In this document: piece by piece, positions 481 to 39,379 of the stretch
Layout of the letters: each line of letters starts with the position of its first letter
Position numbering within the stretch: the first letter of the stretch is position 1
IMG/VR virus record: IMGVR_UViG_3300042905_002309
Location: 62,001 to 126,000 of that record
Direction: 5' to 3' (one strand)
Origin: a virus
DNA length: 64,000 nucleotides
The notes under the pieces: model-generated
The model's database searches: none
The model's input: the letters and a program-made list of their open reading frames with translations, nothing else
Told to the model about the DNA's origin: nothing
Translations under genes and position numbers: made by a program

Positions 481-1944
481 TTACATGTAGACGTGTGCGG
501 CCCCGGGCACAAAGGCTTCACCAAGACCCTTGACTATCAACAAGTGATAGAACATAGAGCTTCCGAAGATATGATCTACAACACCATAACGTGTAAGCAA
601 ACCAACTCTTGGTGCAAAGTCATTAGGTCCAATTGTGCGTTGAATCATAACCGGGATGTAAGGACAGTATACCAAACCAGTGTCATAATAATCAGCACCC
701 TTGTATCCAAGCAATGCGTATTCTACGATAGCGGTACGTTGACCCTGTTGGTACTGGGCTTCTGTACGTGTATCTCTGTAGATATTAAAACGACCACCGA
801 CTGAACCAACCTTGGCAATACCCGTAGGCTGTGTATTGACAGTTCCATTCACTTGCATGAACTTGAACTCAGGAAGGTTTTCCAAGATTGAACACACTCT
901 TGGTGTTGCAATAATGAAGTTAGCAGGACCACGACGATTGTTGATAGCAATACGGTTTGCTTCAATAATGATACGGGCATACAAGTCACGATTACGTTCA
1001 CCGATCCAACGGGCATCAGCAGAACCAGCGTACCAGAATGAATAACCCTTACCCTTGTTTGTAGGTCCACCAGCGGTTAAGCAGATTTGAACCATACGCA
1101 TAATCATTTCACGGTCAATTTCAGCCTGAATTTCATAACTCATTGCATTGGTCATTTCTGAGTCAATGTCAATACCGTTCATGTTCTTCAAGTCTTGTTC
1201 CAACTCAACGCTCCACTTTGCAGCTAAACGTCTTGTACCAGCTTCAACGCTTGTCTTCTCCATACTGATAGTCATCTGAGGAATCTTACCAGACATTTCG
1301 AATTGAGCAAGAAGGGCTGCTACACCAGAGTCAACTCCATTGTATGCAGGATCAAATACTCCAGCTAAACCAACTAAGCTGTTTGAGCTTACGCCAGTAT
1401 GCATAGTATTAAGATTATTCCAACCAACTTCGGTCTGACCTGAAAGTACTGTATTACTAGTACCTGTCCAAGTATTACCACCAACGCCATTAGCTGTCCA
1501 ACCAGAAGGATCACGACCATCACTATTACCCGTATATCCACCAAGACTGTTATCATCATAGCGGTAACGAAGTGCGAAAGCCAAACCAACGGGTCCACTC
1601 ATAGGCTGAACACCGACGATTTCATTAGTAATCAATTCAGGGAAAGTACGACGAATCATGGGAATTAATACTTTAGGTAAACGTGCGTCACCTGGAGCAT
1701 AATTGTCACCAGAATAAGGAGTACCCATATTTCCACCGCTACCAAATACTCCACCTTGTCCAGCGAAGCTATTTTCGGTCAAATACTTTTCTTGGTTTTC
1801 CAAAAGTACGGCTGTACTTAAACGCTTGTGAGAATCTTCCAAAGCAGGAACCTTATCGGAGCTATAGTCCAAAACGGGTTTCCACTTTTCGAGCAATTGT
1901 GTTGCTCTACTGCGATCTACATATCCACTTGCTTGTGTTATCAT
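481..1944 (-). CDS. 23: major capsid protein precursor, T4 gp23-like
   Basis: 487 residues, close to the 521 of T4 gp23. It builds the hexameric head lattice on the gp22 core and is trimmed by the gp21 protease. The N-terminal region has the YLTE|N sequence (E57), matching the (L/I)xE prohead-protease rule, so the mature protein probably starts at N58. Next come SGDNYAPGDARLP (78-90) and PMIRRTFPELI, equivalent to the MVRRAIP segment of gp23, then VGVQPMSGP. The C-terminal part has YCPYIPV and the RYGVV motif typical of the family. It is last in the prohead operon (21-22-23 order as in T4), with its own late promoter and an AAAAAGGA ribosome site. A 46-residue stretch around the cleavage site recurs in the protein at 29596-30693. 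Confidence 0.95.
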   Translation of the reverse strand: MITQASGYVDRSRATQLLEKWKPVLDYSSDKVPALEDSHKRLSTAVLLENQEKYLTENSFAGQGGVFGSGGNMGTPYSGDNYAPGDARLPKVLIPMIRRTFPELITNEIVGVQPMSGPVGLAFALRYRYDDNSLGGYTGNSDGRDPSGWTANGVGGNTWTGTSNTVLSGQTEVGWNNLNTMHTGVSSNSLVGLAGVFDPAYNGVDSGVAALLAQFEMSGKIPQMTISMEKTSVEAGTRRLAAKWSVELEQDLKNMNGIDIDSEMTNAMSYEIQAEIDREMIMRMVQICLTAGGPTNKGKGYSFWYAGSADARWIGERNRDLYARIIIEANRIAINNRRGPANFIIATPRVCSILENLPEFKFMQVNGTVNTQPTGIAKVGSVGGRFNIYRDTRTEAQYQQGQRTAIVEYALLGYKGADYYDTGLVYCPYIPVMIQRTIGPNDFAPRVGLLTRYGVVDHIFGSSMFYHLLIVKGLGEAFVPGAAHVYM

Positions 1945-4117: not shown

Positions 4118-4789
4118 TTATCCTCTTAATGCTTTCATGAACTGTGCAAAACTCTCAACCATATAAGTATCTACGTCTTTCTTAGGAATAGCGTTAAGTC
4201 TGCATTGTAACGAATCACAAGCTAATTCAACGATTCTTCCACCCTCTGCAATGATATACTGACGATTTTCAGTAATACTTTCGAGAATAGCAGATTGGTA
4301 TGAAGGTTGATGAACAAGGTCAACTGCAATTAAATGGAAATTTTTAACCTTGTTGTACTTGCCTTCTTGAATCAATGAGCCAAGAGCACGACTAGAACAA
4401 CCAAGTTTCACACCATCAATAAGCAACTGCTTAACGATTACACCAGCAGGAGTAGAAAGAATTTTTGATCTACCGTAGAACACATTATCCTTCTGTTCTA
4501 ACTTGGTAATCATATGGCAAGCTTTGTCAAGAGATACGTCAGTAGATTCTTGAGGATGGTTTAATTCACCTAAAGCACGACTTTGTTTAATGAATTCTTT
4601 GTCATATCGGGTAACTTCATTAACCATTTCAGTTAAATCGTAGATACGGTTGTTCTGATTTGGTTGCGAAGCCAACATGTATGGCCCTTGAATATAAACA
4701 CTTCTTGGCTCGTTATTGTTCTTTTCTTCAACAATAACCTCTAAATCTTGGCTAAATTCGGTTTCTCTCAAATATTTTAATACTTGCAT
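4118..4789 (-). CDS. 21: prohead core maturation protease, T4 gp21-like
   Basis: 223 residues (T4 gp21 is 212). This serine protease digests the scaffold and trims the capsid protein and internal proteins after (L/I)xE sites. Catalytic features of the herpesvirus-like prohead protease fold are visible: the GELNHP motif with H78, and GCSSRALG with the nucleophile at S132 or S133. The segment between them (GRSKILSTPAGVIVKQLL) is typical of T4-type gp21. It is the first gene of the prohead operon, with a late promoter (CATAAATA) at 4827 and an AGGAG ribosome site. Confidence 0.92.
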   Translation of the reverse strand: MQVLKYLRETEFSQDLEVIVEEKNNNEPRSVYIQGPYMLASQPNQNNRIYDLTEMVNEVTRYDKEFIKQSRALGELNHPQESTDVSLDKACHMITKLEQKDNVFYGRSKILSTPAGVIVKQLLIDGVKLGCSSRALGSLIQEGKYNKVKNFHLIAVDLVHQPSYQSAILESITENRQYIIAEGGRIVELACDSLQCRLNAIPKKDVDTYMVESFAQFMKALRG

Positions 4790-22464: not shown

Positions 22465-22472
22465 GTCTAAAT

Positions 22473-22480
22473 GATAAATA
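22473..22480 (+). promoter_or_regulatory. late promoter of the internal-protein gene at 22510
   Basis: GATAAATA-cttataaag, then ACAGGAG and ATG; leadered. Confidence 0.65.
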
Positions 22481-22509
22481 CTTATAAAGATTTACACAGG
22501 AGTACACTT

Positions 22510-22947
22510 ATGGCAACAAAATTTGAAAAATACTTTAGCAAAACATTGATTAACGAAGCTGTTCCCGCACCTATGAATGATGCGGCTGCGCTTGATGCTT
22601 CCATTGAAAACCCTGCTGATAGAGCAAAATTAGGACAAGAAGTGTCTAATGTGGCTGTTGGTGCTGATAATGTCAACTCAAACGTTGAAGAACTCCGTGG
22701 TATTGCTGATGGTTATGCACAAGAATTGAATTCCATCTTGGAACGTGTTGTTGCCATCCATAATGATATTACTACTGGTTCATTAGCTCAACTTGGTATC
22801 AAAGTAGGTTCAAATATCCTTACAGGTATTCGTGCAGACTTGAGCAAATTAGCACAGGTTATTGGTGGTGGCGCAAATGACGCTATTATTAAACAAGAAT
22901 CTGATAGAGCTAAAGAAGCTACAAAAACTGCTCCTACTAAAGTATAA
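22510..22947 (+). CDS. putative internal head protein with capsid-targeting N-terminus
   Basis: 145 residues. The start MATKFEKYFSKTLINE|AVPAP shows a short amphipathic peptide ending in (L/I)xE|A, the rule for capsid-targeting sequences removed by the prohead protease. The remainder is Ala-rich and helical (VSNVAVGADNVNSNVEEL, LNSILERVVAIHN). The translation start at 22510 is fixed by an ACAGGAG site and a late promoter; an in-frame ATG at 22471 precedes the promoter. The role as an encapsidated protein is inferred from the N-terminus shared with at least five other proteins here. Confidence 0.65.
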   Translation: MATKFEKYFSKTLINEAVPAPMNDAAALDASIENPADRAKLGQEVSNVAVGADNVNSNVEELRGIADGYAQELNSILERVVAIHNDITTGSLAQLGIKVGSNILTGIRADLSKLAQVIGGGANDAIIKQESDRAKEATKTAPTKV

Positions 22948-24473: not shown

Positions 24474-25382
24474 TTACAATGTCATATTCGGACCTTTTGT
24501 ATAGGTCTTAATATCACCACCAATAGCTTGTTTAGTTTTATTCCACATTCTACTAAGCGTATCACCTTTTTCTTCTTGTTTATCATATTCTAAAGCTTTT
24601 GCTCTAGTAATATAAATGATTTTAGGTAATTTCGAATTTGCTTGTTCTTGTCGTTTAATATAATCCATCATTGATAATTGGGCAGTTCTCATATTAATAA
24701 TAGGTTCACCTAACTTAGTTTTAATACTATATTTTGCTCTTGATCTAATTTCCATATCAACAAAGTCACTTATTTTTGCATAATTTTGATTTTGTTGATG
24801 TATAACACCAGCAAAAGTTTTATATATTAATAATGGTAACGTTGTATATCCTGCATTAAAGGTTGTTGTATCAGTTATAGCTGGATTACCTTTTATTGTG
24901 CCATCTTCGTCAAATGGTTCACTTATTGCTGCTAATTGACTTTCTAATAATTCTAATAAACGTGTGAGTATAGTCTTACGTTTAGTATAAGTCGCTATGT
25001 TAGCTCTATGACGTTTAGAATTTGCTGTATTTAGATTAATGATAGCACGTTCTAGGTGATCTTGTACATACTCAATCTTTTTCTGTAAATAACCTGTCTC
25101 ATTATTAAATGCATTTTCACGATTTTTAAGTTTATATCCCTTACCTAATGCATCTAAACTTTCACTTCCACCTACCAAATAAAATACACTACTAGCGTTA
25201 TACTTTTCCGCCTTTTTAAATCCTATCCAATCATTACCTCTACCCTTTTTACTCCAATAAGCTTCAAGACTACCCAAAAGATCAAGAGGATTAGATACAG
25301 CAGGAGTACCATCAGCTTCTAATAAAACTGATGGCTCTATGCATTTCTTGGTCTTTTCGATGCTTTGGTTGAACTTATCCAT
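24474..25382 (-). CDS. putative internal head protein with capsid-targeting N-terminus
   Basis: 302 residues. It starts MDKFNQSIEKTKKCIEPSVL and continues LE|ADG, the same (K)F...IE...LLE|AD layout as the protein at 26573-27130. The body is helical with a long basic coiled-coil-like part (EYVQDHLERAIINLNTANSKRHRANI) and no catalytic motif. The start overlaps the stop of the upstream gene (25382). It is predicted to be packaged with DNA or embedded in the core and trimmed after the LLE site. Confidence 0.6.
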   Translation of the reverse strand: MDKFNQSIEKTKKCIEPSVLLEADGTPAVSNPLDLLGSLEAYWSKKGRGNDWIGFKKAEKYNASSVFYLVGGSESLDALGKGYKLKNRENAFNNETGYLQKKIEYVQDHLERAIINLNTANSKRHRANIATYTKRKTILTRLLELLESQLAAISEPFDEDGTIKGNPAITDTTTFNAGYTTLPLLIYKTFAGVIHQQNQNYAKISDFVDMEIRSRAKYSIKTKLGEPIINMRTAQLSMMDYIKRQEQANSKLPKIIYITRAKALEYDKQEEKGDTLSRMWNKTKQAIGGDIKTYTKGPNMTL

Positions 25383-25894
25383 TAATCACCATAATCATAG
25401 TTTTCAGGATCAGCAAATGGGTCTTCTTCAATTTCAGGATTTACACCAAGGGCTTTGGCTTCTTCTGATGACATACTTCCAAGTTGTCTACCTTCACCAG
25501 CACCACCCTCTTCATCTCTATGACCCTTCATTCCAGATGGAGTCTCTTCTTTTGCAAGATTCTTCTCGTACTGATGCTGATCATAAAACTTCTCAACTTC
25601 ATCAAAAGCTGCTGATGGTGAAATTTGACCGTTCTTAACCTGTCCAACAAGTCCCATACCAATCAAAAGCTTAGAATAATTCTTGCGTTCATCATGTGAT
25701 AAATCCACTGATTGCAATGCAAGTACTTCGTGTGCGTCAAACATGTCTTTAGGTCTGTACTTTCTTGACAAGATTGTAGCAACATCTACATCTGCACCTT
25801 CTGCTTCATCTGCAATATCTCCACCTTCAACAGGGGTTGGTTCTGCTGTTAAAGCCTCATTTACCATAATTTTATACAATTGATCAAATTTCAT
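25382..25894 (-). CDS. putative internal head protein with capsid-targeting N-terminus
   Basis: 170 residues. The start MKFDQLYKIMVNE|ALTAEP again ends in a xxE|A protease-type site. It is followed by an acidic, Ala/Gly-rich segment, a helical centre (LSRKYRPKDMFDAHEVLALQ) and a Gly/Glu-rich acidic tail (PEIEEDPFADPENYDYGD). It has a late promoter AATAAATA and an AATGGAG ribosome site. It is translationally coupled to the next internal-protein candidate. Confidence 0.62.
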   Translation of the reverse strand: MKFDQLYKIMVNEALTAEPTPVEGGDIADEAEGADVDVATILSRKYRPKDMFDAHEVLALQSVDLSHDERKNYSKLLIGMGLVGQVKNGQISPSAAFDEVEKFYDQHQYEKNLAKEETPSGMKGHRDEEGGAGEGRQLGSMSSEEAKALGVNPEIEEDPFADPENYDYGD

Positions 25895-26572: not shown

Positions 26573-27130
26573 TCAAGTATAATCCTCAGATGTTAAACTT
26601 AATGCTAGTGATAAATCTTTATAAGCATCTTCTGCATTGTCAACAGTTACTTCTTTATATTTTGAAGCAATTTCAGGATTTACTTCGACAGATGATTTAT
26701 CAAACATAGCTTTCCAAGCTAATTTAATCAATTCAAGCTTTTCACCAACTTCAACACCACCTTTTCCACCTTTACCAAAGTTTTTATTAAAATGTCTGTT
26801 GGCAGTAGGTGGTAAACGCTTCTGAATATCTTGTAAAACTTTATCTGCATTATGAATGTTTATTTGATCTGCATTAGTGATCAACATTTTACTCAAATTT
26901 GGTTCAGGTTCGATGTAAGCAGAAACGGCTGTTTGAATTAAAGCTGCTCGTGCTTGAGATGTTGGTTCTTTTTCAACTGGTTCAGGTGCAGGAGCTTCTG
27001 GTGCAGGATTTTCGGCAGGAGCTTCTGTTGCTGCTGGTGCAGTTCCCATATCGGGTGCTGGATTCACTGTAGGTAAATCAGCTTCCAATAACATCTTAAA
27101 TTGTTCGATTAATGTGTCAAATTTACTCAT
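26573..27130 (-). CDS. putative internal head protein with capsid-targeting N-terminus
   Basis: 185 residues. MSKFDTLIEQFKMLLE|AD is a targeting peptide ending in LLE|A. A ~45-residue Ala/Pro/Glu linker (PAPDMGTAPAATEAPAENP) follows, then a helical C-terminal domain (AALIQTAVSAYI, DKVLQDIQKRLPP, GEKLELIKLAWKAMF). The start abuts the stop of the paralogue-like gene at 27131 (1 nt). Packaging inside the head is inferred. Confidence 0.65.
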   Translation of the reverse strand: MSKFDTLIEQFKMLLEADLPTVNPAPDMGTAPAATEAPAENPAPEAPAPEPVEKEPTSQARAALIQTAVSAYIEPEPNLSKMLITNADQINIHNADKVLQDIQKRLPPTANRHFNKNFGKGGKGGVEVGEKLELIKLAWKAMFDKSSVEVNPEIASKYKEVTVDNAEDAYKDLSLALSLTSEDYT

Positions 27131-27685
27131 TTAGACTCCTGTTGTGGGTGCTGGTGCGACTGTGCCAGTTGGTGCAGGTGTGGCAGGTGCTTTTGCTTTT
27201 AATTTTGTAAGATAATCAGAAAAAGTCTTCTGCATAGTCGTATCACCCATAATTTTATCCATAACACTTGGAAGATTTTCGGCTGTTATACCATCTGCAA
27301 CAACGGGTTGACCAGTTTTTGCATCAGTTGGAACAACATTTTGTTTTGGAACACCAGATGTACCCGGTGAAGATGCTGCTGTAGGTGCTGTTACTGGCAC
27401 AGTTGGTGTTATTGCTCTACCTGTTTTTGGATCAATTTGTGGTGTCGTAGGGGAATTTGGTTGAGTTTCTGTGGTTGCTGGTGATCCTGCAATTGGTGAT
27501 ACCGCAGCTTGTCCAGCACCAGTTGTAGCACTAGTGGTGGTATTCGGTGTTGATTGTGCCACTACAGGTTGACCTGTCTTGGGATCAATTTGCGTTGCTG
27601 TTTTAGGTGCGTTAGGTGCTGATACTTGTCCTACAGCTTCATAAATCTTCATTTTTTGTTCAATAGCTCTGTCAAATTTTCTCAT
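27131..27685 (-). CDS. putative internal head protein with repeats and capsid-targeting N-terminus
   Basis: 184 residues. The start MRKFDRAIEQKMKIYE|AV parallels its neighbour (KFD..IEQ.K). Most of the protein is Pro/Thr/Ala-rich and contains three copies of a short motif: IDPKTGQPVV (near 33), IDPKTGRAIT (near 84) and TDAKTGQPVV (near 118). A helical segment (LPSVMDKIMGDTTMQKTFSDYL) follows before a Pro/Ala/Thr tail. It has a late promoter GATAAATA and a CAGGAG site. It is first gene of a two-gene unit. It may be a flexible head filler or decoration, but no enzyme is indicated. Confidence 0.62.
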   Translation of the reverse strand: MRKFDRAIEQKMKIYEAVGQVSAPNAPKTATQIDPKTGQPVVAQSTPNTTTSATTGAGQAAVSPIAGSPATTETQPNSPTTPQIDPKTGRAITPTVPVTAPTAASSPGTSGVPKQNVVPTDAKTGQPVVADGITAENLPSVMDKIMGDTTMQKTFSDYLTKLKAKAPATPAPTGTVAPAPTTGV

Positions 27686-28442: not shown

Positions 28443-28470
28443 AGTATAGCAGTTTACATGAAAGATTCAA
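28443..28470 (-). promoter_or_regulatory. early promoter, leaderless type, for the gene at 27996-28436
   Basis: Minus strand TTGAAT, 16 bp ending TGC, TATACT, 6 nt (gttagc), ATG. It lies against the stop of the upstream gene. Confidence 0.62.
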
Positions 28471-28915
28471 GTACTATTTTCTCGATGAGTTCTGTTGGAA
28501 GATGTTGGGAATTAGCTTCTTGTAAACACTGTTTAAAATGTTTAGCAATAATGGATAATTCATGTTTGAAGGCTAATTCCTTTTCGTATAATTCGATAGG
28601 AAGTTTTGAAACATCTGTAGCCTTTTCAAGGTAAATATTATGGTTTAAAAGTTCTGTTTTAGAACCAAGCATTTTCTTAACTTTGGTGATATAAGAATCG
28701 ATTGAAGTGTAGGATAATTTTTCTTCAAGTGTTACGGGTTTGTGAATTAAATTACCATTTGCATCAATAACGCCAAGTTTGAATGCATCAGTATTTTTAA
28801 ATGGTTCAGCCAATTTTTTCATAACATATGCAGTTAAAAACGCCTCATTGAGATTGAGTGTTGGATTACTTGCATCACTTTTGCCACATAAAAGACATTT
28901 TTCGTTACTTTTCAT
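28454..28915 (-). CDS. phage protein with FKLGVIDxxG motif
   Basis: 153 residues. It begins with a small CxxC (CLLCGKSD). The stretch KLAEPFKNTDAFKLGVIDANGNLIHKPVTLEEKLSYTSIDSYITKVKKMLG resembles, from memory, a family of uncharacterised myophage proteins with (F/Y)KLG(I/V)ID-x-x-G and a following EExxYT; here it is shown only in outline and is not a proof of function. The remainder is helical. Late-type box TCTAAATA at 28943. Confidence 0.55.
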   Translation of the reverse strand: MKSNEKCLLCGKSDASNPTLNLNEAFLTAYVMKKLAEPFKNTDAFKLGVIDANGNLIHKPVTLEEKLSYTSIDSYITKVKKMLGSKTELLNHNIYLEKATDVSKLPIELYEKELAFKHELSIIAKHFKQCLQEANSQHLPTELIEKIVLESFM

Positions 28916-29357
28916 CGATTATTTCCTTCGCTTCGTTTAAAGTATTTAGAGTTTTTGTTAGATTTTCGATCAAAATTTGCATAGATTCTATCGTAAGTTC
29001 GACAGGTGTGTTATAAACTTGCAATAAGTAAGCATAACGTTCAGGATATTTCTTCATGAACCAATCTGAGAAAATAATACCACCCTTATGTGCGCCAGTG
29101 GCACTAAATTTATGACAATAACAACATAAACTTACAGAATTTAAAATATCCCAAGATAATGCATAATTTTCTCGTCCTATAACATGGTGAGAATTTAATA
29201 TGGTAGGTTTACCCCTTATATTAATTTCTTTATATTTTATTCCACAAAGTTCGCAATAACCTTTATGTCTTCCTATTAACGACCATAATTTCCATGCGTG
29301 TTTTTTTAGTTTTGAAATTGATATTTTTTTATTTATTTTTTTTGGCATATGGTCCAC
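28905..29357 (-). CDS. HNH endonuclease
   Basis: 150 residues from a GTG start (MDHMPKK..., alternative ATG 9 nt later). It has a zinc-HNH layout: YCELCGIKYKE (35-45), ILNSHHVIGREN (52-64) and CCYCHKFSATGAHKGG (77-93). The N-terminus is basic (KKINKKISISKLKKHAWK). It overlaps the GIY-YIG gene at 29329-29580 by 29 nt on the same strand and the next gene by 11 nt, making a two-nuclease mobile block. AGGAAAG upstream suits the GTG. Confidence 0.8.
   Translation of the reverse strand: MDHMPKKINKKISISKLKKHAWKLWSLIGRHKGYCELCGIKYKEINIRGKPTILNSHHVIGRENYALSWDILNSVSLCCYCHKFSATGAHKGGIIFSDWFMKKYPERYAYLLQVYNTPVELTIESMQILIENLTKTLNTLNEAKEIIDEK
28943..28950 (-). promoter_or_regulatory. late-type promoter of the gene at 28454-28915
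   Basis: Minus strand TCTAAATA inside the HNH gene end, 27 nt before the start codon, with GAAGGAAA leader. Confidence 0.5.
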
Positions 29358-29580
29358 GTTTCTTTCCTAGTTGCAATTCTGATCTTTTATGGCATACCTC
29401 TAATGATCTAATTTTACCTTTATTTAAATTATATGCATTTTGTAAAAAAGAATTAGTATGTTTATTATAATATAACGAATGTTTATGAGCATTAATACGT
29501 TTTCTACAATCGATACTCTGACCAATATAACACTTATTATTGATTGTATTTGTTATTTTGTATATACCACATATCTTCAT
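29329..29580 (-). CDS. small GIY-YIG endonuclease
   Basis: 83 residues. The GIY-YIG core is seen as MKICGIYKITNTINNKCYIGQS and DCRKRINAHKHSL, but the protein ends soon after (GKKRGPYAKKNK), shorter than the 1-360 gene. It may be a minimal nuclease domain or a truncated form whose C-terminal DNA-binding part was lost to the overlapping HNH gene. The late-type box TCTAAATA is 6 nt before the ATG, with no ribosome site. Confidence 0.78.
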   Translation of the reverse strand: MKICGIYKITNTINNKCYIGQSIDCRKRINAHKHSLYYNKHTNSFLQNAYNLNKGKIRSLEVCHKRSELQLGKKRGPYAKKNK

Positions 29581-29595: not shown

Positions 29596-30693
29596 TTAAA
29601 TACCTAAAGTCAATTGTCCACCAGTACCTGCGGGTGTGCCATCAATAACGGGTTTAGGGCCACCAACCGATGGAGCAGGATTAGTTCTGTGTGAAAATCT
29701 TGAATCAATTTTATCTTTAATTTCTGGTGTTAATTCTACTGCATCAAAGTTACCCCAATTTGATTTACCTTGTGCTAACATTTTCTTACGATAAATTGCA
29801 ATAGCTTGTAAAGGATTAAATGCCCAAGAAACAGCATAACCACGATAGTCTCTATCAGATGAACCATCTCTGAGTGATATACCATCTTTTCTGATTAAAA
29901 ATGGAGTTTTGGATACGAGAGCTTCATTTAAACGTTTTAAATATTCATGACCTTCTGGTAGACATTTTACTTTATAACCAATACCATATTTTTCCATACT
30001 TCTTGCAACAGGACCACCTCTACCTTTGGCAATATCATCTGGTGAACTTACTGCAAATACAACAACATTTTTATTATCTAAAATTAATCGTTCACCAACT
30101 TTTGGTGGATTTACCCCAACAGGAATATCAAGCGTAAAATATTGACTACCATAACTTTCAGGAGTTGATGTTAAAAATTTGTTATACTCTTTTGACTCAC
30201 GCACAAGCGTTCTGCGAATCATAGGAGTTTTCTGTTTCTTCTTTTTACCCTTACCCTTCGAACCAAATCCTAAAATCTTAGGCATACGAGCATCACCGGG
30301 TGCGTAATTATCACCACTAAATGGTGTAGCTGTAGTTACAACATTAGGGCCAAACATACTACCAGCACCACCTGCCATTGTGTTTTCTTTTAAATCTTTT
30401 GCATCCATTTCAGCAACCATATCTTTAAAACTCTGCTTAACACCCCTTTTAAGTTTGCCTTCCATTTTGTCCAATTCTTTGTAATAATCGGAACCGATTT
30501 TAGAGTCTTTCTTCTTCGGAAATTCGGCTGTATGCTGTTTTGCAATTTTTTCGGCTTTTTTCTGATCATCGGTGTGCTCTTTTTCTATTTTAGAACCTTT
30601 TTTAATCATTTTAGGATCGAAATCTGAGGTTTTAGTGCCTAATAGGTCTACTACTTCATTTAAATGTGCTTTAAAAATGTCTAAAAATTTCAT
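29596..30693 (-). CDS. internal-head-type protein carrying a capsid-protein N-arm copy
   Basis: 365 residues from MKFLDIFKAHLNE|VV, a targeting-type N-terminus. After a Lys-rich coiled segment comes LKE|NTMAGGAG (E103), then SGDNYAPGDARMPKIL (126-141), a basic insert GFGSKGKGKKKKQK and TPMIRRTL. This repeats the capsid protein's LTE|NSFAGQGG, SGDNYAPGDARLPKVL and PMIRRTF in the same order. The C-terminal ~190 residues (YFTLDIPVGVNPPKVGERLIL, DDIAKGRGGPVARSMEKYG, YRGYAVSWAFNPLQA) form an unrecognised domain. The start at 30693 follows an AGAGGATAA site; an upstream ATG is rejected. A capsid-bound or packaged cargo is inferred. Confidence 0.72.
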   Translation of the reverse strand: MKFLDIFKAHLNEVVDLLGTKTSDFDPKMIKKGSKIEKEHTDDQKKAEKIAKQHTAEFPKKKDSKIGSDYYKELDKMEGKLKRGVKQSFKDMVAEMDAKDLKENTMAGGAGSMFGPNVVTTATPFSGDNYAPGDARMPKILGFGSKGKGKKKKQKTPMIRRTLVRESKEYNKFLTSTPESYGSQYFTLDIPVGVNPPKVGERLILDNKNVVVFAVSSPDDIAKGRGGPVARSMEKYGIGYKVKCLPEGHEYLKRLNEALVSKTPFLIRKDGISLRDGSSDRDYRGYAVSWAFNPLQAIAIYRKKMLAQGKSNWGNFDAVELTPEIKDKIDSRFSHRTNPAPSVGGPKPVIDGTPAGTGGQLTLGI

Positions 30694-30725: not shown

Positions 30726-30733
30726 TATTTAGT
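30726..30733 (-). promoter_or_regulatory. late promoter of the N-arm protein gene
   Basis: Minus strand ACTAAATA-gtttc, 32 nt before 30693. The complementary strand right beside it carries AGGAG for the divergent plus gene at 30748. Confidence 0.62.
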
Positions 30734-30939: not shown

Positions 30940-31159
30940 AAAGACTCCCATGAGGGCTTTAAAAATCGTTTTTAATGATGGTACTGATCCAAAAGAGATC
31001 GAGATTGGTAAATATACACAGATTCTCAAACCACTTAACAAAGTATTATTTCACATGGATAAACTTGATGATGGTAAAATCCTTTTGATTGTAGGTGCAG
31101 ATTTTGTGGAAGACTTTCGTAAAGTCGATAGAATTGAAGTAGTAAGGAATGACATATGA
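30929..31159 (+). CDS. hypothetical small protein upstream of uvsY
   Basis: 76 residues from MNTKKTPMRALKIVFNDG. It is beta-rich (LKIVFNDGTDPKEIEIGKYTQI, KILLIVGADFVEDF), a likely small barrel or sandwich. It overlaps uvsY by 4 nt (ATGA). A function in recombination is suggested only by coupling. Confidence 0.6.
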   Translation: MNTKKTPMRALKIVFNDGTDPKEIEIGKYTQILKPLNKVLFHMDKLDDGKILLIVGADFVEDFRKVDRIEVVRNDI

Positions 31160-31563
31160 GTACACTTAAAGAAACGTTAGCAAAATACACAGCAGAGATA
31201 AATGAAGACATACATTTAGATAGAGTAAATGTGTCGGATATGGTTTTAAAGGTACCCGGAATTAAACATAAATGGGTTGCACGTTTAATGAATCATAAAG
31301 CAGATGTATTAGAATTAATTGAAGCACGAGAGACAGCAATTTCACATCTTATTAAGAAAATTAAATCCGAATCACCAGTAACCATCAACGATTTACTTGC
31401 CAGTAAAGAAGCTGAAAGACATGAATTAATCACTAAAGTCGATAAAGAAATGCGTGATCAGCGTAATATTATCGAATATCTTGAAAAGGTAGAAAAACTC
31501 ATGTCACAGATTACTTTTGATATTAAAAATCTCACTGAATTAAATAAACAAGAGACAATGTAG
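31156..31563 (+). CDS. uvsY: recombination mediator, UvsY-like
   Basis: 135 residues (T4 UvsY is 137), highly helical. UvsY loads UvsX on gp32-coated ssDNA. The pattern is LDRVNVSDMVLKVPGIKHKWVARLMNHKADVLELIEAR, then a linker, then KVDKEMRDQRNIIEYLEKVEKLMSQITFDIKNLTEL, matching the two-helix-block layout of UvsY proteins of T4 relatives. It directly precedes uvsW as in T4. Assignment rests on size, pattern and synteny. Confidence 0.75.
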   Translation: MSTLKETLAKYTAEINEDIHLDRVNVSDMVLKVPGIKHKWVARLMNHKADVLELIEARETAISHLIKKIKSESPVTINDLLASKEAERHELITKVDKEMRDQRNIIEYLEKVEKLMSQITFDIKNLTELNKQETM

Positions 31564-31607: not shown

Positions 31608-33257
31608 ATGCACATAGTAATAGATTTAGATTCAGTAAGGGATAAAGGCATTATAAAGAGTGATTCACTCGATATGATACGTGAATTCTTTTCTGAGGCT
31701 GACCCAAAGGCCAGTTTGATGAAGAATCTTTACAAATCAAAGGCACGTTTTATACCATCACGAAAGTATGCTATTACAGAAGCAGGACGTTTTGAATTAG
31801 GTTTATTGGTTGATATAATCAATTACATAAAGAGTTTAAATGCCCCATTCAGAATTATATTTTCTGAACAATTTAAAGCTCGTTATCTATCAGCATATCC
31901 CTTTGCAGAAGAACCATTAACAAAATTGAGTTTGGAATTATATGATTTCCAGCGTATAGGTGTAGTTAAAGCATTGAAGAATGGAAATGGATTACTTATT
32001 GAACCTACTGGTGCAGGTAAGACTTTAATGCAAGGAACTATTATTGCTACTGTAATGGCTCACAAACCAGAAAGCAGAGTATTATTAATCACACTCACAC
32101 ATTTAATTGACCAAATTTACAACGAATTGGTATCATACGGTATTGATCCAATTAATATTTCAAGATGGTCTGGTGGACACGAATTAGATCGTAGTAAAAG
32201 TATTGTAATATGTGGACCAAATATTCTTTACAGTAAAATAGATAATGTAGAACTTGAGATGAAAAAGGTGAAGATTATTTTTCTTACTATGAAAAAAACC
32301 TATGATACAGATCAAAGTCTATCACCTGCCGCTAAATCGAAGTTACAACTACAAATGCGTGAAGCGAAGGATAAACTTGAGTCACTTGAAGTGAAACTTA
32401 CAGAGAATAAAGTTATCCATAATTTCCTTGGTGAGATTGATTTACTTATTGCAGATGAAATCCATTCATGGAAAAAGGACGGAGAAATCACCAACGTTTT
32501 GAAGTACATAAACACACGTAATCGCTTCGGGTTTACTGGCACGTTACCAGAAATGAAGATCGATCAATGGAGTATTATTGGACATTTTGGCCCTATTGTC
32601 CATGAATCTAAACGTGAACAACTTGTAGCTGATAAACACATTTCTGATACAGATGTACGTATTATATTATTAGAGCATAAGAGTCCACCAAACTTCAAGC
32701 CACCACATATAAGTGAGCGTGAGGAAGATGAAACTTCAACGGAATATTATGAACGTGAATTGGAGTATATTCATCATAACGTATTCAGAAACAATGTAAT
32801 TAAAAAGATTGCCGATAAAACTGCAAAGAACACATTAATTTTGATAGATCGTCTTGAACATGGTGATTATCTATATGAATTTTTGAAATCAAATTTACCT
32901 AATAAAGAGGTTTATTATATTAAAGGAGAAGTTGAAGATGAGGAACGTTCAAAGATAACCGCTTTAATGGAGAAGCAAGACAACGTTGTTTGTATTGCTA
33001 TGTCGAGAATATTCAGCACAGGTGTAAACATCAAAAACTTGCATTATATTGTGTTCACTTCGGCAGGAAAAGCCAAAGTAAAAAACATTCAGAGTATCGG
33101 GCGTGGAGTCCGTAAGTTAGAGGGTAAGATTAAGGTAGTTATTTTCGATTTATGCGATAACCTTTTCTACTCTATGAGACATTTAGATCAAAGGACTAAA
33201 GTATATGACAATGACCAAATCAGTTACCAAATCACCAAAATTAAAGAAAGTACTTAA
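31608..33257 (+). CDS. uvsW: DNA/RNA helicase UvsW
   Basis: 549 residues (T4 UvsW 503). This SF2 helicase unwinds R-loops and branched DNA and helps switch T4 to recombination-dependent replication. Visible motifs: Q-like LYDFQRIGV near 117, Walker A EPTGAGKT near 131-138, Walker B ADEIHSW near 282, motif III GFTGTLP near 307 and motif VI QSIGRGVRK near 499. An insertion with a coiled coil lies between Ia and II (KSKLQLQMREAKDKLESLEVKL). It overlaps the sigma factor gene by 53 nt. Confidence 0.93.
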   Translation: MHIVIDLDSVRDKGIIKSDSLDMIREFFSEADPKASLMKNLYKSKARFIPSRKYAITEAGRFELGLLVDIINYIKSLNAPFRIIFSEQFKARYLSAYPFAEEPLTKLSLELYDFQRIGVVKALKNGNGLLIEPTGAGKTLMQGTIIATVMAHKPESRVLLITLTHLIDQIYNELVSYGIDPINISRWSGGHELDRSKSIVICGPNILYSKIDNVELEMKKVKIIFLTMKKTYDTDQSLSPAAKSKLQLQMREAKDKLESLEVKLTENKVIHNFLGEIDLLIADEIHSWKKDGEITNVLKYINTRNRFGFTGTLPEMKIDQWSIIGHFGPIVHESKREQLVADKHISDTDVRIILLEHKSPPNFKPPHISEREEDETSTEYYERELEYIHHNVFRNNVIKKIADKTAKNTLILIDRLEHGDYLYEFLKSNLPNKEVYYIKGEVEDEERSKITALMEKQDNVVCIAMSRIFSTGVNIKNLHYIVFTSAGKAKVKNIQSIGRGVRKLEGKIKVVIFDLCDNLFYSMRHLDQRTKVYDNDQISYQITKIKEST

Positions 33258-33867
33258 AGTAAAGACGCTTAAATTATCAGCAGGAACCAAGAGACATAAT
33301 AAAGTTATGGATTTTGATAAAGAAGTCTGTGTAGATAATTCTGTAGATGTAGACTATCATCTTTATGATCCAGAACATTTAGAAGAATCTGAAATAGTCC
33401 ATTCAGATGAAATTGAAGAAATTCCTGCTGCTGTTATTTCAAAAATTAAAAAGATTAAAATTAAAGAAGAAAAGAAAAAGTATTATGTGGATAATGATAC
33501 ATTTGAAACACTAATTCAGGACTTCTATGATACTGATAAATTCTCTGATGAATTGGCTATGATTCTGTATAATATTGCGAATCGTGTAGCATTTATGCCA
33601 AATTTCATCAATTATAGTTATAAAGATGAAATGATTGGGGATGGATTACTTAAAGAAATTCAGACTATTAAATCTAAGAAGTTTGATGTTAAACGTGGTA
33701 AAGCATTCAATTATTTTACTACAATCGTATGGAATGCATTTATTGGTCGAATTAAAAGTGAACAAAAAGAACACACACTTTTAAAGGAACATCAAGAGCG
33801 TGAATATGATATTTTAACTAGTGGAAGAAGAATCACAGTTAACGATCATGTAGATACTTGCGACTAA
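33205..33867 (+). CDS. 55: late-promoter sigma factor, T4 gp55-like
   Basis: 220 residues (T4 185). gp55 directs host RNA polymerase to TATAAATA late promoters together with the gp45 clamp. The core AMILYNIANRVAFMPNFINYSYKDEMIGDGLLKEI followed by KFDVKRGKAFNYFTTIVWNAFIGRIKSEQK matches the region-2-like gp55 domain. The first ~90 residues are a charged extension with long Lys/Glu runs. The start at 33205 lies inside uvsW; a later start at 33310 (MDFDKEV) cannot be excluded. Its presence agrees with the many nnTAAATA promoters here. Confidence 0.88.
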   Translation: MTMTKSVTKSPKLKKVLKVKTLKLSAGTKRHNKVMDFDKEVCVDNSVDVDYHLYDPEHLEESEIVHSDEIEEIPAAVISKIKKIKIKEEKKKYYVDNDTFETLIQDFYDTDKFSDELAMILYNIANRVAFMPNFINYSYKDEMIGDGLLKEIQTIKSKKFDVKRGKAFNYFTTIVWNAFIGRIKSEQKEHTLLKEHQEREYDILTSGRRITVNDHVDTCD

Positions 33868-33869
33868 GA

Positions 33870-33897
33870 TTGACTTTATCGAATCTTTTGATATTAT
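33870..33897 (+). promoter_or_regulatory. early promoter, leaderless type, for gp47
   Basis: TTGACT, 16 bp ending TGA, TATTAT, 6 nt (agggac), ATG. Confidence 0.72.
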
Positions 33898-33903
33898 AGG
33901 GAC

Positions 33904-34983
33904 ATGATAAATATCTACAACCCAAAAATTGCTTTAATTTCTGACATCCATCTTGGAATTCATACTAACAGTGAGGTATGGCATAAGATTATGTTGGATT
34001 ATGCTGTATGGTTACGTGATGAACTTATTACCAAAGGTATTAAAGATATCTTTGTATTAGGTGATATTTTTAATGATCGTTCAGATATAGGTGTGCAAAC
34101 CCTTCATGTAGCCGAATCTTTCTTTAAGACTTTTACTGATGGATTGTACAATTTTAATGTAGTATTAATAACTGGTAATCACGACAGTTTCTTTCATGAT
34201 AAAGCAGATGTGAATAGTATTAGTATCTTAAAAGGTTGGAAAAATATCACAGTTGTAGACAAATTGGAGATAGCTGAATGGTCAGGTAAGAAATACGCTT
34301 TTGTACCGTGGGGTGTTGATATTAACACACTACCTAACGATTTATCTGGAATATTTGGACACTTCGAAATTAATACATTTAAAGTCAATAACAATAAGAT
34401 TTGTGAACATGGTGTTGATTCTGATCTATTACTATCAAAGGCACCAAATGTTTATAGTGGTCATTATCACACTCCACAAGCAAGAAAATACCCCAACGGT
34501 AAGATTCTATATTTAGGTTGTCCATATGCACAACGATGGAGTGATGTAGACGATACTAAAGGCTATTATATCATGGACATCAAGACTGATGATATTGACT
34601 TCTTTCCGAACAATGTTAGTCCAAAATATTACAAGATTAAGTTATCAGATTTAATGGATAAAGAAAAACGTCCAGAAATCAAGTGCAGAATACCGGGTAA
34701 TTTCATTAAAATTATTGTCGATAAGAAATTAGATTATGAGATGTTTGAAAAATTACAAACTAGTCTTAATGCGTTGAAACCAATGGATTTAGGTAGTGAT
34801 TTTAGTGAACGAAGCACTATTGAGACACCAGAAGTTTATGAAGCAGTTGATATGGATATACCTGTTCTTATACCAGAATATGTAGATTTACTTGATAAAC
34901 CAGATTTACGTGATAAGATAATTGCTGAAATGGATGAGATTTATAACACAGCTTTAACTAAAGTAAAGATTGAGAGCAACTAA
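33904..34983 (+). CDS. 47: recombination nuclease subunit, T4 gp47 (SbcD/Mre11)-like
   Basis: 359 residues (T4 339). With gp46 it resects DNA ends for recombination-dependent replication. Metallophosphoesterase motifs: SDIHLG near 13-18, GDIFNDR near 58-64, GNHDS near 93-97 and SGHYHTPQ near 191-198. The downstream glycosyltransferase gene starts in the stop codon (TAATG). In T4, 46 and 47 are neighbours; here an island of glycan and nucleotide genes separates them by 8.7 kb. Confidence 0.94.
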   Translation: MINIYNPKIALISDIHLGIHTNSEVWHKIMLDYAVWLRDELITKGIKDIFVLGDIFNDRSDIGVQTLHVAESFFKTFTDGLYNFNVVLITGNHDSFFHDKADVNSISILKGWKNITVVDKLEIAEWSGKKYAFVPWGVDINTLPNDLSGIFGHFEINTFKVNNNKICEHGVDSDLLLSKAPNVYSGHYHTPQARKYPNGKILYLGCPYAQRWSDVDDTKGYYIMDIKTDDIDFFPNNVSPKYYKIKLSDLMDKEKRPEIKCRIPGNFIKIIVDKKLDYEMFEKLQTSLNALKPMDLGSDFSERSTIETPEVYEAVDMDIPVLIPEYVDLLDKPDLRDKIIAEMDEIYNTALTKVKIESN

Positions 34984-35843
34984 TGAATAATAAAATCGGA
35001 ATTGGTGTAGTGACCTACAATAGAGTGGATTTTTTCAAACAATGTATTAATACTATCCCTGATGGAGTTGGTACACTAGTCGTTATTAATGACGGTACAC
35101 CATATTCAAGTGATGCATATCCATCAAAAATCAAAGAAGTTATTCAACATACAACAAATAAATGCGTAGGTGTTTCAAAAAACGAAGCCCTACGCTACTT
35201 AAAACAAGACGGTTGCGAACATCTATTCCTAATCGAAGATGATATGCTTATCAAGCGTCCTGATGTCTTTGAAACATATATCAAAGCTGCAAGTAAATCA
35301 GGTATTTGGCATATGAACTATGGTCCGGGAAGTCCTTTAAATCGTGTCCAAGACCCTGAAATTCTTAAACTCGATCTAGCTGGTAGAGATAAGTGGGATA
35401 AACATTCCCCAATTAATCCAAGATGTATTATCGATTATGGTGATGGAGTTCAAATTGCTTTATACAAGCATACAGTAGCTATGTTCTCATATTTCTTAAA
35501 GGGAGTTATCACAAACTGTGGTTATTTTGATGAACGATTCCAAAACGCATGGGAACACGTTGAACATACTTACAGGATTATCAAAGCTGGATTACATCCC
35601 CCATTCTGGAATTTTGCTGATATCTATGACAGTACGGAATATCTTCAAGAAATTGAAGGAGCTATCGAAAATTCTAGTATTACTAAGGATGATGCTAAAT
35701 GGAAACGTAATATCCATAACGGTGCCGAGTTGTACCAACATTTACATGGACATTATCCTGCACAGATAAAAGACGCTTCACCAGAAGAAGTTCAGGAAAC
35801 ATTAAGACATATCAAGACTAATTATTCCAGAGAATTGACATGA
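34983..35843 (+). CDS. family 2-type glycosyltransferase
   Basis: 286 residues. A GT-A fold is indicated by IGVVTYNRVDFFKQCINTIPDG (start), LVVINDGTPY, GVSKNEALRYL and the metal-binding LIEDDML near 93-99. Donor and acceptor are unknown. No signal or membrane segment, so it acts in the cytoplasm. It is translationally coupled to gp47 (TAATG) and to the next glycosyltransferase (ATGA). Confidence 0.82.
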   Translation: MNNKIGIGVVTYNRVDFFKQCINTIPDGVGTLVVINDGTPYSSDAYPSKIKEVIQHTTNKCVGVSKNEALRYLKQDGCEHLFLIEDDMLIKRPDVFETYIKAASKSGIWHMNYGPGSPLNRVQDPEILKLDLAGRDKWDKHSPINPRCIIDYGDGVQIALYKHTVAMFSYFLKGVITNCGYFDERFQNAWEHVEHTYRIIKAGLHPPFWNFADIYDSTEYLQEIEGAIENSSITKDDAKWKRNIHNGAELYQHLHGHYPAQIKDASPEEVQETLRHIKTNYSRELT

Positions 35844-36625
35844 AAATAACTATAGGAACCAATTATTTTAATACATATGATCGTCAGACACGAGCACAAG
35901 AATGTTTACGGGAATTAAAACGTAGACATTCTGAAATATCTCTTTATGATGTACAATTCATGGATGATTTTTCTGGTCTTATTGATGATTTCAAAACTTT
36001 ACCTGTATTAACCAGATCAAGTAGAGATGTGACAGATGGTAAGAAAAAGCTACCATTCGTTAATGATATTTTCAACGTACTTAGCGAAACTGATGCTGAT
36101 TATTTTGTATTCACTAATAGCGATATTTTGATAACTGAACCACTAATCACTAAAATATTATCAGAACAAATTAAAGCTACACCATGTAATAGATTAGATA
36201 TTTATCCCTTGAAATCGTTAACAAGTGAGATAATACCTTACAGATGGGAGATCGGTGGATTTGATACGTTTGTATTCAATAATAACTGGTATAAAGCTAA
36301 TAAACATCATTTTGAAGACTTCTTAATGGGTTCTGTATGGTTTGATCATCATTATGCAGGAATCATGAAAAAGTTGACTAACGATCCTTTACAGAACACA
36401 TTTCCACCGTCAATATTACATGAGATGCACAATAAGAATTGGTCTTTTGATGATGTGGAATCTAAATTCAATGCGAAACAGTATGAAAATTCAAAATACA
36501 AACATCTAAGTAAAGTATGGGATGATTATTTTGCACAATATTTAAAGAACAGTCGTCAAAACGGATTCGTATTGATTCCAGAGGATCATGAGAAACTTCT
36601 AGAGAAAGATTTTTTCAAAACATGA
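35840..36625 (+). CDS. glycosyltransferase-like protein (GT-A fold)
   Basis: 261 residues. The start MKITIGTNYFNTYDRQTRAQECLREL, then VLSETDADYFVFTNSDILIT, resembles the nucleotide-sugar domain with a DxD-like NSD site. KWYKANKH and WFDHHYAGIMKKL lie further on. No exact family is named. It is coupled by ATGA overlaps at both ends within the island. Confidence 0.68.
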   Translation: MKITIGTNYFNTYDRQTRAQECLRELKRRHSEISLYDVQFMDDFSGLIDDFKTLPVLTRSSRDVTDGKKKLPFVNDIFNVLSETDADYFVFTNSDILITEPLITKILSEQIKATPCNRLDIYPLKSLTSEIIPYRWEIGGFDTFVFNNNWYKANKHHFEDFLMGSVWFDHHYAGIMKKLTNDPLQNTFPPSILHEMHNKNWSFDDVESKFNAKQYENSKYKHLSKVWDDYFAQYLKNSRQNGFVLIPEDHEKLLEKDFFKT

Positions 36626-37344
36626 GTACATTAGGTATAATACAGCCAATGCGTATAGGTGACATTATCATATGTTTACCTATCGCAAAATATTATAAAG
36701 AGCAAGGTTACGATATAATCTGGCCTATTCTAAAGCCTTATATTAATATGTTTAAACGACATGTTGATTATGTTGATTTTTTACCTATTGAACCAAGTTG
36801 GCATATGTGTGTGCATGATTCTAGAGTAGCTGTTAAAGAACATCAAAAATTAGAATTGATATTTCATTATCCACAGACACAACAATTAACCCAACAATAC
36901 ACACAACAGGATTTATGGAGTTTTGATGAATTTAAGTATAAATTATCCAATGTACCATTCGATTTAAAATGGAAATTAGATATCAAGAGAGATTATGATA
37001 GAGAATTAGATTTATACAATAAATTAATTAAAAACCCTGATTACGTAGTTTACCAGAAAAAATCATCAGATTGTCAATCAGATGTGGTGTTAAATTTAAA
37101 CGGAAAACCATATGATATCATCGAATTAAATGAATATACGGATGATATATTTGATTGGCTAACGATTTTAGAACGAGCGAAGAAACTTGTATTAATTGAA
37201 AGTTGTTTCAGTAATTTAGTCGATCAATTACAAATAAAAACAGATAAAGTACTCATAACAAAAACAGGATATTATGACGCAAAATTACAAGATGGCACAC
37301 ACAAAGGTATGCCTAGATTGCGTGGAAATTGGGAGATAATATGA
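36622..37344 (+). CDS. GT-B / heptosyltransferase-like protein
   Basis: 240 residues. The first segment MSTLGIIQPMRIGDIIICLPIAKYYKEQGYDI is typical of GT9 heptosyltransferase-like proteins (R-x-GD-x-xxxLP), and LERAKKLVLIESCFSNLVDQL recalls the acceptor-side motif (SxxxH is not complete). It is shorter than full heptosyltransferases (about 320-350), so it may be reduced. It is coupled to both neighbours by ATGA. Confidence 0.65.
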   Translation: MSTLGIIQPMRIGDIIICLPIAKYYKEQGYDIIWPILKPYINMFKRHVDYVDFLPIEPSWHMCVHDSRVAVKEHQKLELIFHYPQTQQLTQQYTQQDLWSFDEFKYKLSNVPFDLKWKLDIKRDYDRELDLYNKLIKNPDYVVYQKKSSDCQSDVVLNLNGKPYDIIELNEYTDDIFDWLTILERAKKLVLIESCFSNLVDQLQIKTDKVLITKTGYYDAKLQDGTHKGMPRLRGNWEII

Positions 37345-38741
37345 AGAAGGTAGCATTTACGTTGATTTTAAATGGTATGCCGTTTATTAAAGAGCAGGTG
37401 AATATCATACCCAAAATGTTCGATAAGTGGTACATTATAGAGGGTGTGGCTAATCCTGTTGGCGATACGGGATGGTGCAAGAAGTTACCAGACGAATTTC
37501 ATAAAAACGGTTTATCGATTGATGGTACGACTGAATACCTAGATTCTATCAAATCCGATAAAATCGTAGTTATCCGTAGTCAAAGCGGTTTTTGGAATGG
37601 TAAAACTGAAATGTGTAACACCTTTATGCATGAAGTTGAGAATGCTATTTTAATGCAGATTGATATGGATGAATTTTGGGATATACCAACTCTAACATCA
37701 CTATTCACCTTTTGTGAGAATAATCCAAACGATTTTAATGCTATGTTTTTCAAATGTAATTTCTTTGTCGGAAAACATCTTATAACACAAGGCGAGAATT
37801 GTTATGGTGATAACTCGTATGAGTGGGTTAGACTTTGGATCATTAAAAATAGTACAAGATTCGTTACACACGAACCACCCGTAGTTGCTGGTTCAGAAAA
37901 ATATTTAACCAAGAATTTTACTTCACAAAATAAATGGATATTTAATCATTATGCGTATGCATTAGAAGAACAATTGAAGTTAAAAGAAAAGTATTACGGA
38001 TACACCAATGCAGTAGAACACTGGAAACGATTACAGGGAGTTACACAATTTCCTGTAAAATTACGTGATTATTTTTCATGGGTACACGACGAATCTCTTG
38101 TAATTTCGTTAAATCAGGATAAATTATTGAAGGAGAATAATATGTTTAAAGATTTTGAGTTAGTCGTATTACAATTAAATCAATTTGGATTAGGTGAAGG
38201 TGCGTTAGGGTTTAATCCTAACAAACTCGCAGGACGAGAAGAACAATTAAATTATTTGAAACGTAAGTTGTTGGAAATAAAACCTGAATATATCCTAGAA
38301 GTCGGTACAGAACTTGGACATTTTTGTTGCTTCTGTAAATTAATTTTACCTGATTGTACTATTGTTACACTGGGTATACAAAATAAATCCAAACAAGCTA
38401 CTGATTTTTTGAATAAATTATATGGAAACTACATCACCTATTTACACGGTGATAGTAAAGTAATTTTACCACAAACCAAAACAGATAAGGCTATTACTTT
38501 TGCTTGGGTAGATGGTGGACACGATTACAATACGGCTTATAGCGACTTAATTAATTGTGATAAATTGGGTGTCACTAATATATTTGTTGATGATTTTGTT
38601 GGCATTAAAGAGGTTAATAAAGCAGTTTATGATTTTATTAAGAACTTTCCTATGTATAAAATTGTTGACACTAACAATACTAAATTAGATGATGATCGTG
38701 GTATAGTCCACATAAAGAGAGAATGTATATGGCCGAAATAA
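37341..38741 (+). CDS. fusion: glycosyltransferase-like domain plus class I methyltransferase
   Basis: 466 residues from MKKVAFTLILNGMPFI. The N-terminal ~265 residues contain FTLILNGMPFIKEQVNIIPKMFDKWYIIEG and MQIDMDEFWD, a GT17-like pattern with a DxD. The C-terminal ~200 residues read EYILEVGTELGHFCCFCKL, then ITFAWVDGGHDYNTAYSDL, the SAM-binding and acidic motifs of a Methyltransf_24-type enzyme. The join is near residue 280 (AGREEQLNYLKRKL). It is probably a sugar transferase that also methylates the product. The GGGAG site suits the 37341 ATG. Confidence 0.75.
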   Translation: MKKVAFTLILNGMPFIKEQVNIIPKMFDKWYIIEGVANPVGDTGWCKKLPDEFHKNGLSIDGTTEYLDSIKSDKIVVIRSQSGFWNGKTEMCNTFMHEVENAILMQIDMDEFWDIPTLTSLFTFCENNPNDFNAMFFKCNFFVGKHLITQGENCYGDNSYEWVRLWIIKNSTRFVTHEPPVVAGSEKYLTKNFTSQNKWIFNHYAYALEEQLKLKEKYYGYTNAVEHWKRLQGVTQFPVKLRDYFSWVHDESLVISLNQDKLLKENNMFKDFELVVLQLNQFGLGEGALGFNPNKLAGREEQLNYLKRKLLEIKPEYILEVGTELGHFCCFCKLILPDCTIVTLGIQNKSKQATDFLNKLYGNYITYLHGDSKVILPQTKTDKAITFAWVDGGHDYNTAYSDLINCDKLGVTNIFVDDFVGIKEVNKAVYDFIKNFPMYKIVDTNNTKLDDDRGIVHIKRECIWPK

Positions 38742-39379
38742 CCTTAAATGACGAATTTGGACAAGCTATCAGAGACACTATAATAGAGCATAAATATTGC
38801 ACTAATCTAGAAATAGGTTCTTGGGATGGTAGTGGCTCGACACAATGTTTTATAGCAGGAATGAATAAATTAGATAAACCTAAAGTATTACAATGTGTAG
38901 AAATTAATCACGATAGATTTAAAATTTTAGTAGATACAGTAAAAGAAGAATATGTAGACCGACATCTTATGAGTAGTGTTGATAAGTATACATTTCTACC
39001 AAAATCGTTTGATGATGTTTGGTTATCCCCATACAACAAAATATCACTAACCTATTCAAGAGCATTAGTAAAATCTTGGTTTGATCATGATGTACAACAT
39101 TTACCAGATATAGGATTTTTAACATCTGAATATGTGTTACCAAAATATGATGCAGTATTGATTGACGGTAGTGAGTTTACGGGATATAGTGAATTTATGT
39201 TATTGAAAGATAAAACTACTTGTTTTATGTTGGATGATGTATTTAGTGCATATAAATGTAATCAGATATTTCACGAACTCATTCGAAACGATTCATGGTC
39301 ATTAATTAAGAGTAATCAAAATTTACGAAACGGGTATGCTATATTTATAAATAATGGAGTAAAAGAGAACTACACATGA
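38729..39379 (+). CDS. class I methyltransferase-like protein
   Basis: About 216 residues. NLEIGSWDGSGSTQCFIAGMNK fits a SAM-binding loop, VLQCVEINHDRF the ribose-binding acidic residue, and YDAVLIDGSEFTGYSEF an acidic motif as in the second half of the preceding fusion protein. The ATG at 38723 is an alternative; AAAGAGAGA lies better for 38729. It overlaps its neighbours. Target unknown, probably a sugar in the glycan made by the island. Confidence 0.68.
   Translation: MAEITLNDEFGQAIRDTIIEHKYCTNLEIGSWDGSGSTQCFIAGMNKLDKPKVLQCVEINHDRFKILVDTVKEEYVDRHLMSSVDKYTFLPKSFDDVWLSPYNKISLTYSRALVKSWFDHDVQHLPDIGFLTSEYVLPKYDAVLIDGSEFTGYSEFMLLKDKTTCFMLDDVFSAYKCNQIFHELIRNDSWSLIKSNQNLRNGYAIFINNGVKENYT

Follow-up and report, generated by a model that had tools for sequence, protein, structure and literature searches.

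The window analyzed in this study, a stretch of 64,000 nucleotides (positions 62,001 to 126,000 of the 248-kb IMG/VR virus record IMGVR_UViG_3300042905_002309), contained a minus-strand gene at 29596..30693, with ATG at 30693 and the stop codon at 29596-29598, encoding a protein of 365 aa. Residues 1-13 (30655..30693) form a targeting-type leader, MKFLDIFKAHLNE↓V (arrows mark putative cleavage points), which ends in an L-x-E site and whose function is inferred from the sequence. Residues 26-79 (30457..30618) resemble DUF5661 (Pfam PF18905, E 3.8e-5), with a score of 24.4 bits against the curated cut-off of 27. Residues 104-141 (30271..30384) follow an LKE↓N site and copy the mature N-terminus of the major capsid protein, residues 142-155 (30229..30270) form a lysine-rich insert of 14 residues, and residues 157-162 (PMIRRT, 30208..30225) continue the capsid arm after the insert. 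Residues 163-365 (29599..30207) form a C-terminal domain without a Pfam hit, the last part of which is kept in L010 (L numbers are our labels for sequences of the related uncultured phages, and G numbers for their genomes).

The major capsid protein of gp23 type is encoded on the minus strand at 481..1944 (487 aa, Pfam Gp23 4.6e-89), and was the only Gp23-family gene found in the record; the arm-copy protein itself gave no Gp23 (PF07068) hit. The repeated segment, capsid residues 55-103, lies at 1636..1782 (minus strand) and includes the maturation site LTE↓N. A prohead protease of gp21 type, the presumed cutter of both proteins, is encoded at 4118..4789 (minus strand; Pfam Peptidase_S77 5.7e-21, PHROG head maturation protease). 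Two small genes without useful PHROG matches lie between the protease and scaffold genes (3203-4116, minus strand), in the region where T4-type core proteins would be expected. Upstream of the arm gene, on the plus strand, are a UvsY-like gene (31156..31563; PHROG 231, 3e-6) and UvsW-like, gp55-like, and gp47-like genes (31608..34983), followed by a cluster of genes that read like glycosyltransferases, methyltransferases, and other sugar or capsule-type enzymes (34983-40543). Downstream of the arm gene, on the minus strand, are an HNH and a GIY-YIG-like endonuclease gene (28905-29580), the place of which is taken in most relatives by one GIY-YIG-like gene of about 140 aa, and gene c9 (28454..28915; PHROG 2086 positions 11-71).

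A preliminary description of the sequence had stated that residues 101-165 of this protein repeat capsid residues 55-103 in order, split by a basic insert of 14 residues, and we found this observation to be correct. BLASTP aligned protein residues 92-162 with capsid residues 46-100 (32/71 identical, E 2e-11), with a 14-residue gap at the basic insert, and the local score of 124 was compared with 36.5 +/- 5.2 for 2000 shuffled sequences (maximum 68), ruling out chance similarity. LKE↓N (103/104) against LTE↓N (57/58), AG, SGDNYAPGDAR(M/L)PK(I/V)L, and PMIRRT were all present in order, although cleavage at either site is inferred from the motif. No match was detected at the DNA level and synonymous codons differed freely, indicating that the copy is old and kept at the protein level. 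The possibility that the segment is common to unrelated proteins, which had been named beforehand as a ground for rejection, was not supported, since whole-record searches, including a profile search, found only the capsid and the arm gene. Several further proteins of the window (22471-22947 on the plus strand; 25382-25894, 26573-27130, and 27131-27685 on the minus strand) have targeting-type leaders ending in an x-E-A or similar site but no arm copy, and are candidates for other packaged proteins.

Searches of IMG/VR with the arm region returned not only capsids but also many small proteins, and about 57 distinct members were collected. These are usually stand-alone proteins of 70-90 aa, such as MNLEQLVLQVLEE↓DNVAGGAGSAFGPGVTSTATPFSGDNYAKGDARNLFGG...KKKKK, with a short leader, an L/I-x-E prohead-protease-type site (L-T-D in the L020-L023 group), the capsid-arm copy, and a polybasic stretch placed either at the C-terminus or, as in the window protein, between the arm and an RR(T/N/R) motif. 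Some members keep the capsid continuation almost whole (IPKVLGGIIRRNLPKD in L013, against LPKVLIPMIRRTFPEL). The pI is mostly about 10, and 81% of the members contain a 20-residue stretch with a net charge of +10 or more, compared with 5% of neighboring ORFs. The small proteins matched no Pfam, PHROG, or NCBIfam family, a search of Rfam gave nothing, a scan of bacterial genomes gave no confirmed relative, and structure predictions of the protein and the capsid were too poor for fold searches.

In the surveyed loci with an assigned arm gene (about 23), the gene has the same neighbors, being divergent to a UvsY-like gene that is followed by UvsW-like, gp55-like, and gp47-like genes. The window gene is also in this place, and is therefore a probable ortholog of the small proteins, enlarged by the DUF5661-like module, which is absent from the small orthologs, and the C-terminal domain. 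In a less biased check of records fetched by capsid only, 8 of those probed held uvsY and all 8 had the arm gene beside it, whereas the 8 records without the arm gene also lacked uvsY and are presumably incomplete. Absence of the gene from part of the group was therefore not supported. One of the eight with uvsY, G062, had been missed by the profile, and its ORF beside uvsY turned out to be a diverged arm protein. Additionally, a late-promoter-like TAAATA was found within 60 nt upstream in 43 of 56 family members, against 8 in shuffles, and lies at 30726..30731 (minus strand) before the window gene. In the window the same element precedes the capsid, protease, portal, and several head-type genes, and of the replication, recombination, and sigma-factor genes checked only uvsW has it.

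Capsid arms vary strongly between these phages. The N-fist region (L024-L103, L225-L378) is far more variable in this uncultured group than in Straboviridae, although the following RRTFPELI(T/S)NEIVGVQPM is almost invariant. In 22 genomes holding both genes, the summed similarity of the arm copy and the own capsid arm was 2050, against 1380 +/- 93 for random pairings, and none of 200,000 permutations reached it. Within nine phages whose capsid bodies are about 80-94% identical, the exact p was 5e-5, and arm-copy similarity still correlated with capsid-arm similarity after removing capsid-body identity (partial r 0.43, none of 5000 permutations); as related phages are not independent, these p-values are guides. 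Examples are GNQFPSQND in both proteins of G065, G057, G061, and G059, FNPP in both of G001 and G043, and SGDTYATGDAR in both of G027. G062, which was found blind by gene order, has an arm copy nearly identical to its own unusual capsid arm, with GGSLGTFQTSDWKDNPSGTPGKDKYAEGDFR in the arm protein and GGSLGTFQTSNWVNNPAGTPGTDTYAAGDYR in the capsid, and a score of 154 against at most 71 to other capsids. However, tracking is not complete: the own capsid was the best match in only 6 and among the top three in 12 of 22, and several genomes (G003, G018, G023, G037, G045, and G063) did not track by score.

At identical residues of the two proteins the same codon was used 182 times, against 194 +/- 10 expected by independent choice, indicating that selection at the protein level keeps the match. 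Recent duplication or gene conversion was therefore rejected as its cause, although old conversions cannot be excluded. A chance or relic duplication without function, for which the frequent recombination between phage genes and the genomes that do not track could be cited, is highly unlikely in view of the conserved locus, constant architecture, co-variation, and randomized codons with preserved residues, as well as the 1386 phage records with a gp61.1 match described below.

Alignment to T4 gp23, although gapped there, placed the segment at the gp21 cleavage site and the mature N-terminus, that is, the N-fist (66-91) and N-arm. The T4 N-fist contacts four subunits in two capsomers, is disordered inside the prohead, moves to the outer face on expansion, helps form Soc sites, and is disordered in the five subunits facing the portal (PMC9958956, PMC7136217). 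In ten records of the group only one Gp23-family gene was found, and therefore no gp24.

The gene first appeared to be confined to this group, as tblastn searches of phage records with the small proteins were empty and three cyanophages lacked a second arm copy, but this was overturned when T4 gp23 was searched against the T4 genome, which returned gp24 and a third hit, gene 61.1. The 54-aa gp61.1 (NP_049649.1; PHROG 1823 and the end of PHROG 2086, unknown function) reads MKTFKEFIKE↓DMVAGDSGGNPENISIGTTSGAVVNKGPEQIPKKKKEESKEKEE, with a leader, an I-K-E site, a gp23 N-fist copy, and a lysine-rich end; 17 of 37 residues match gp23 57-93, with a score of 82 against a shuffled mean of 29 and a maximum of 53 in 5000. 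By tblastn, matches were found in 1386 phage records, mostly annotated as hypothetical and a few as capsid-like, although some of the weakest hits, such as IME13, are gp23 itself. A profile of ten gp61.1 proteins hit gp23 59-102 at 94.6%, and seven of ten other gp61.1 loci were also hit directly by T4 gp23. In several Straboviridae gp61.1 is longer, with an N-terminal domain that matches gene c9 of the window group (BLASTP 7e-12 for Ac42), and PHROG 2086 covers both parts; in the window group c9 is a separate gene close downstream of the arm gene, and T4 gp61.2 was rejected as the c9 counterpart. This fusion supports, but does not prove, that the arm gene and gp61.1 are the same gene lineage. 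No PHROG hit was obtained for the window protein, or above chance for the small members, the direct profile match between the families is modest (hhalign 81% over 20 columns), and gp61.1 lies beside the gene 61 primase in most Straboviridae examined rather than beside uvsY, so that the arm proteins resemble gp61.1 without established membership in its family (PHROG 1823/2086). Because gp23 arms hardly vary in Straboviridae, tracking was not visible there (p 0.38). Two papers were found to name gp61.1, both only in gene tables, and no functional study was found, although the literature searched was partial and work in subscription journals cannot be excluded.

Taken together, these results suggest that the gene is the local, enlarged version of an old T4-type head-protein family, whose core is a detached copy of the N-fist and N-arm of the capsid protein joined to a polylysine stretch. 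In this view, which we consider about as likely as not, the leader would direct the protein into the prohead core, the gp21-type protease would cut it at the same kind of site as in the capsid, and the freed arm copy would dock where a capsid N-fist docks on neighboring subunits, while the lysine stretch would bind DNA, thus coupling shell and genome or stabilizing the expanding shell in trans. Our analyses demonstrate the repeat, the conserved locus, the architecture, the tracking of the own capsid arm, the lack of silent-site similarity, and the T4 gp61.1 counterpart, whereas targeting, packaging, cleavage, the binding site, and DNA binding are inferred, without direct evidence. The outward movement of the T4 N-fist on expansion (PMC9958956) fits poorly with a simple inner-wall tether; positions without a native N-fist neighbor, such as the portal vertex or pentons, are our preferred sites, also without direct evidence. 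As T4 has both gp24 and gp61.1, filling gp24-less pentons cannot be the general role.

The strongest alternative, although doubtful, is that the segment is a recognition patch read by a third partner in the prohead (scaffold, protease, or a chaperone), through which the capsid and the arm-basic protein co-vary. The segment spans the maturation site in both proteins, the capsid N-termini are disordered inside the prohead before expansion (PMC9958956), and co-variation fits any shared partner. However, in T4 a 10-residue CTS and an L/I-x-E motif are enough for targeting and cutting (PMC9026906), the other proteins of the window with such leaders lack the arm, and conservation reaches about 40 residues past the site, as far as the RR motif. 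It is unlikely, though possible, that the protein is an assembly regulator, in which the arm copy competes with the capsid's own N-fist and so times expansion or sets shell geometry, with the basic tail only holding it in the acidic core. Reuse of a capsid-binding motif to redirect assembly is known from SaPI1 CpmB (PMC5644958), and adenovirus VII competes for hexon sites (PMC8156859), but nothing in the sequence points to size or timing control, and the constant, strongly basic stretch suggests nucleic acid or core binding as part of the role.

In the window protein, two L-x-E sites at 13 and 103 flank the DUF5661-like module and would release it separately if both are cut, and the arm may also dock cargo. 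Extra domains occur independently in three lineages, in two of them between two L-x-E-type sites. In L020 and L021 (arm ORF around 5962-6495), a C-terminal extension shows a weak, below-cut-off match to an ADP-ribosyltransferase catalytic domain (E 0.003), which recalls the packaged Alt of T4, whereas L022 and L023 from near relatives lack it. In L141, L142, and L143 (182 aa), a partly hydrophobic module of about 110 residues lies between a leader-type site and a second S-E site before the arm copy, as an insertion independent of that in the window protein. That the family is mainly a cargo carrier, with the arm-basic unit as a docking tag and these modules as delivered functions, is nevertheless very unlikely, since most members, and T4 gp61.1, carry no extra module.

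The preliminary description had proposed that the protein holds signals for both core entry and capsid-type maturation, and that it may bind the lattice in place of the arm, act as a tether or size factor, or present cargo on the inner capsid surface. This interpretation is partly supported: a functional capsid-arm mimic on a packaged-type protein, possibly a lattice binder or tether, gains strong evolutionary support from the family's presence wherever its locus was seen in this group, its tracking of the own capsid arm, the constant basic stretch, and the layout of gp61.1, but nothing supports a role in size control specifically. The origin also differs, as the arm was not copied into a cargo-type protein here; an old small arm-plus-lysine protein appears to have been enlarged.

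A broader reading, which remains tentative and less likely than not, is that T4-like phages, T4 included, make a detached capsid N-fist as a separate packaged protein that completes or locks the arm network of the shell in trans and anchors the genome or cargo to it, as a general but overlooked component of the gp23-type head that co-evolves with the capsid. The T4 head is among the best-studied viral shells, yet its genome appears to encode a separate small protein, filed as hypothetical, that copies the capsid's own N-terminal fist. If the protein docks in the lattice, it would give phages a way to link shell and DNA, or to lock expanded shells, that current head models do not include. It would also suggest a function for hypothetical proteins in more than a thousand sequenced phages, and a natural docking tag for loading proteins into T4 heads.

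Among known systems, T4 gp61.1 shares with the window protein the leader ending in an L/I-x-E site, the copy of the own gp23 N-fist, the lysine-rich end, and the link to the c9 domain, but has neither the DUF5661-like module nor the long C-terminal domain. The T4 internal head proteins IPI-IPIII, which have a capsid targeting sequence, are likewise basic with a short leader cut at L/I-x-E (PMC9026906), a leader motif that the window protein carries, with its packaging inferred; no copy of the capsid arm has been reported in the IPs. T4 gp24 is another gp23-derived head protein cut by gp21, but is a full capsid-fold paralog. Phage P1 DarA and Hdf are packaged proteins that bind the inner shell and DNA, with DarA cut by the prohead protease, but are large folded proteins at penton-hexon junctions and are not described as copies of the capsid arm (PMC12810830). 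SaPI1 CpmB, a small protein, reuses a motif by which another head protein binds the capsid, but it copies the scaffold's hook rather than the capsid's own arm and comes from a satellite (PMC5644958). Adenovirus core protein VII, from an unrelated virus and comparable by analogy only, is basic, is cut by a protease near its N-terminus, and binds DNA and, by its N-terminal peptide, the hexon wall in competition with protein VI, but does not copy hexon's own sequence (PMC8156859).
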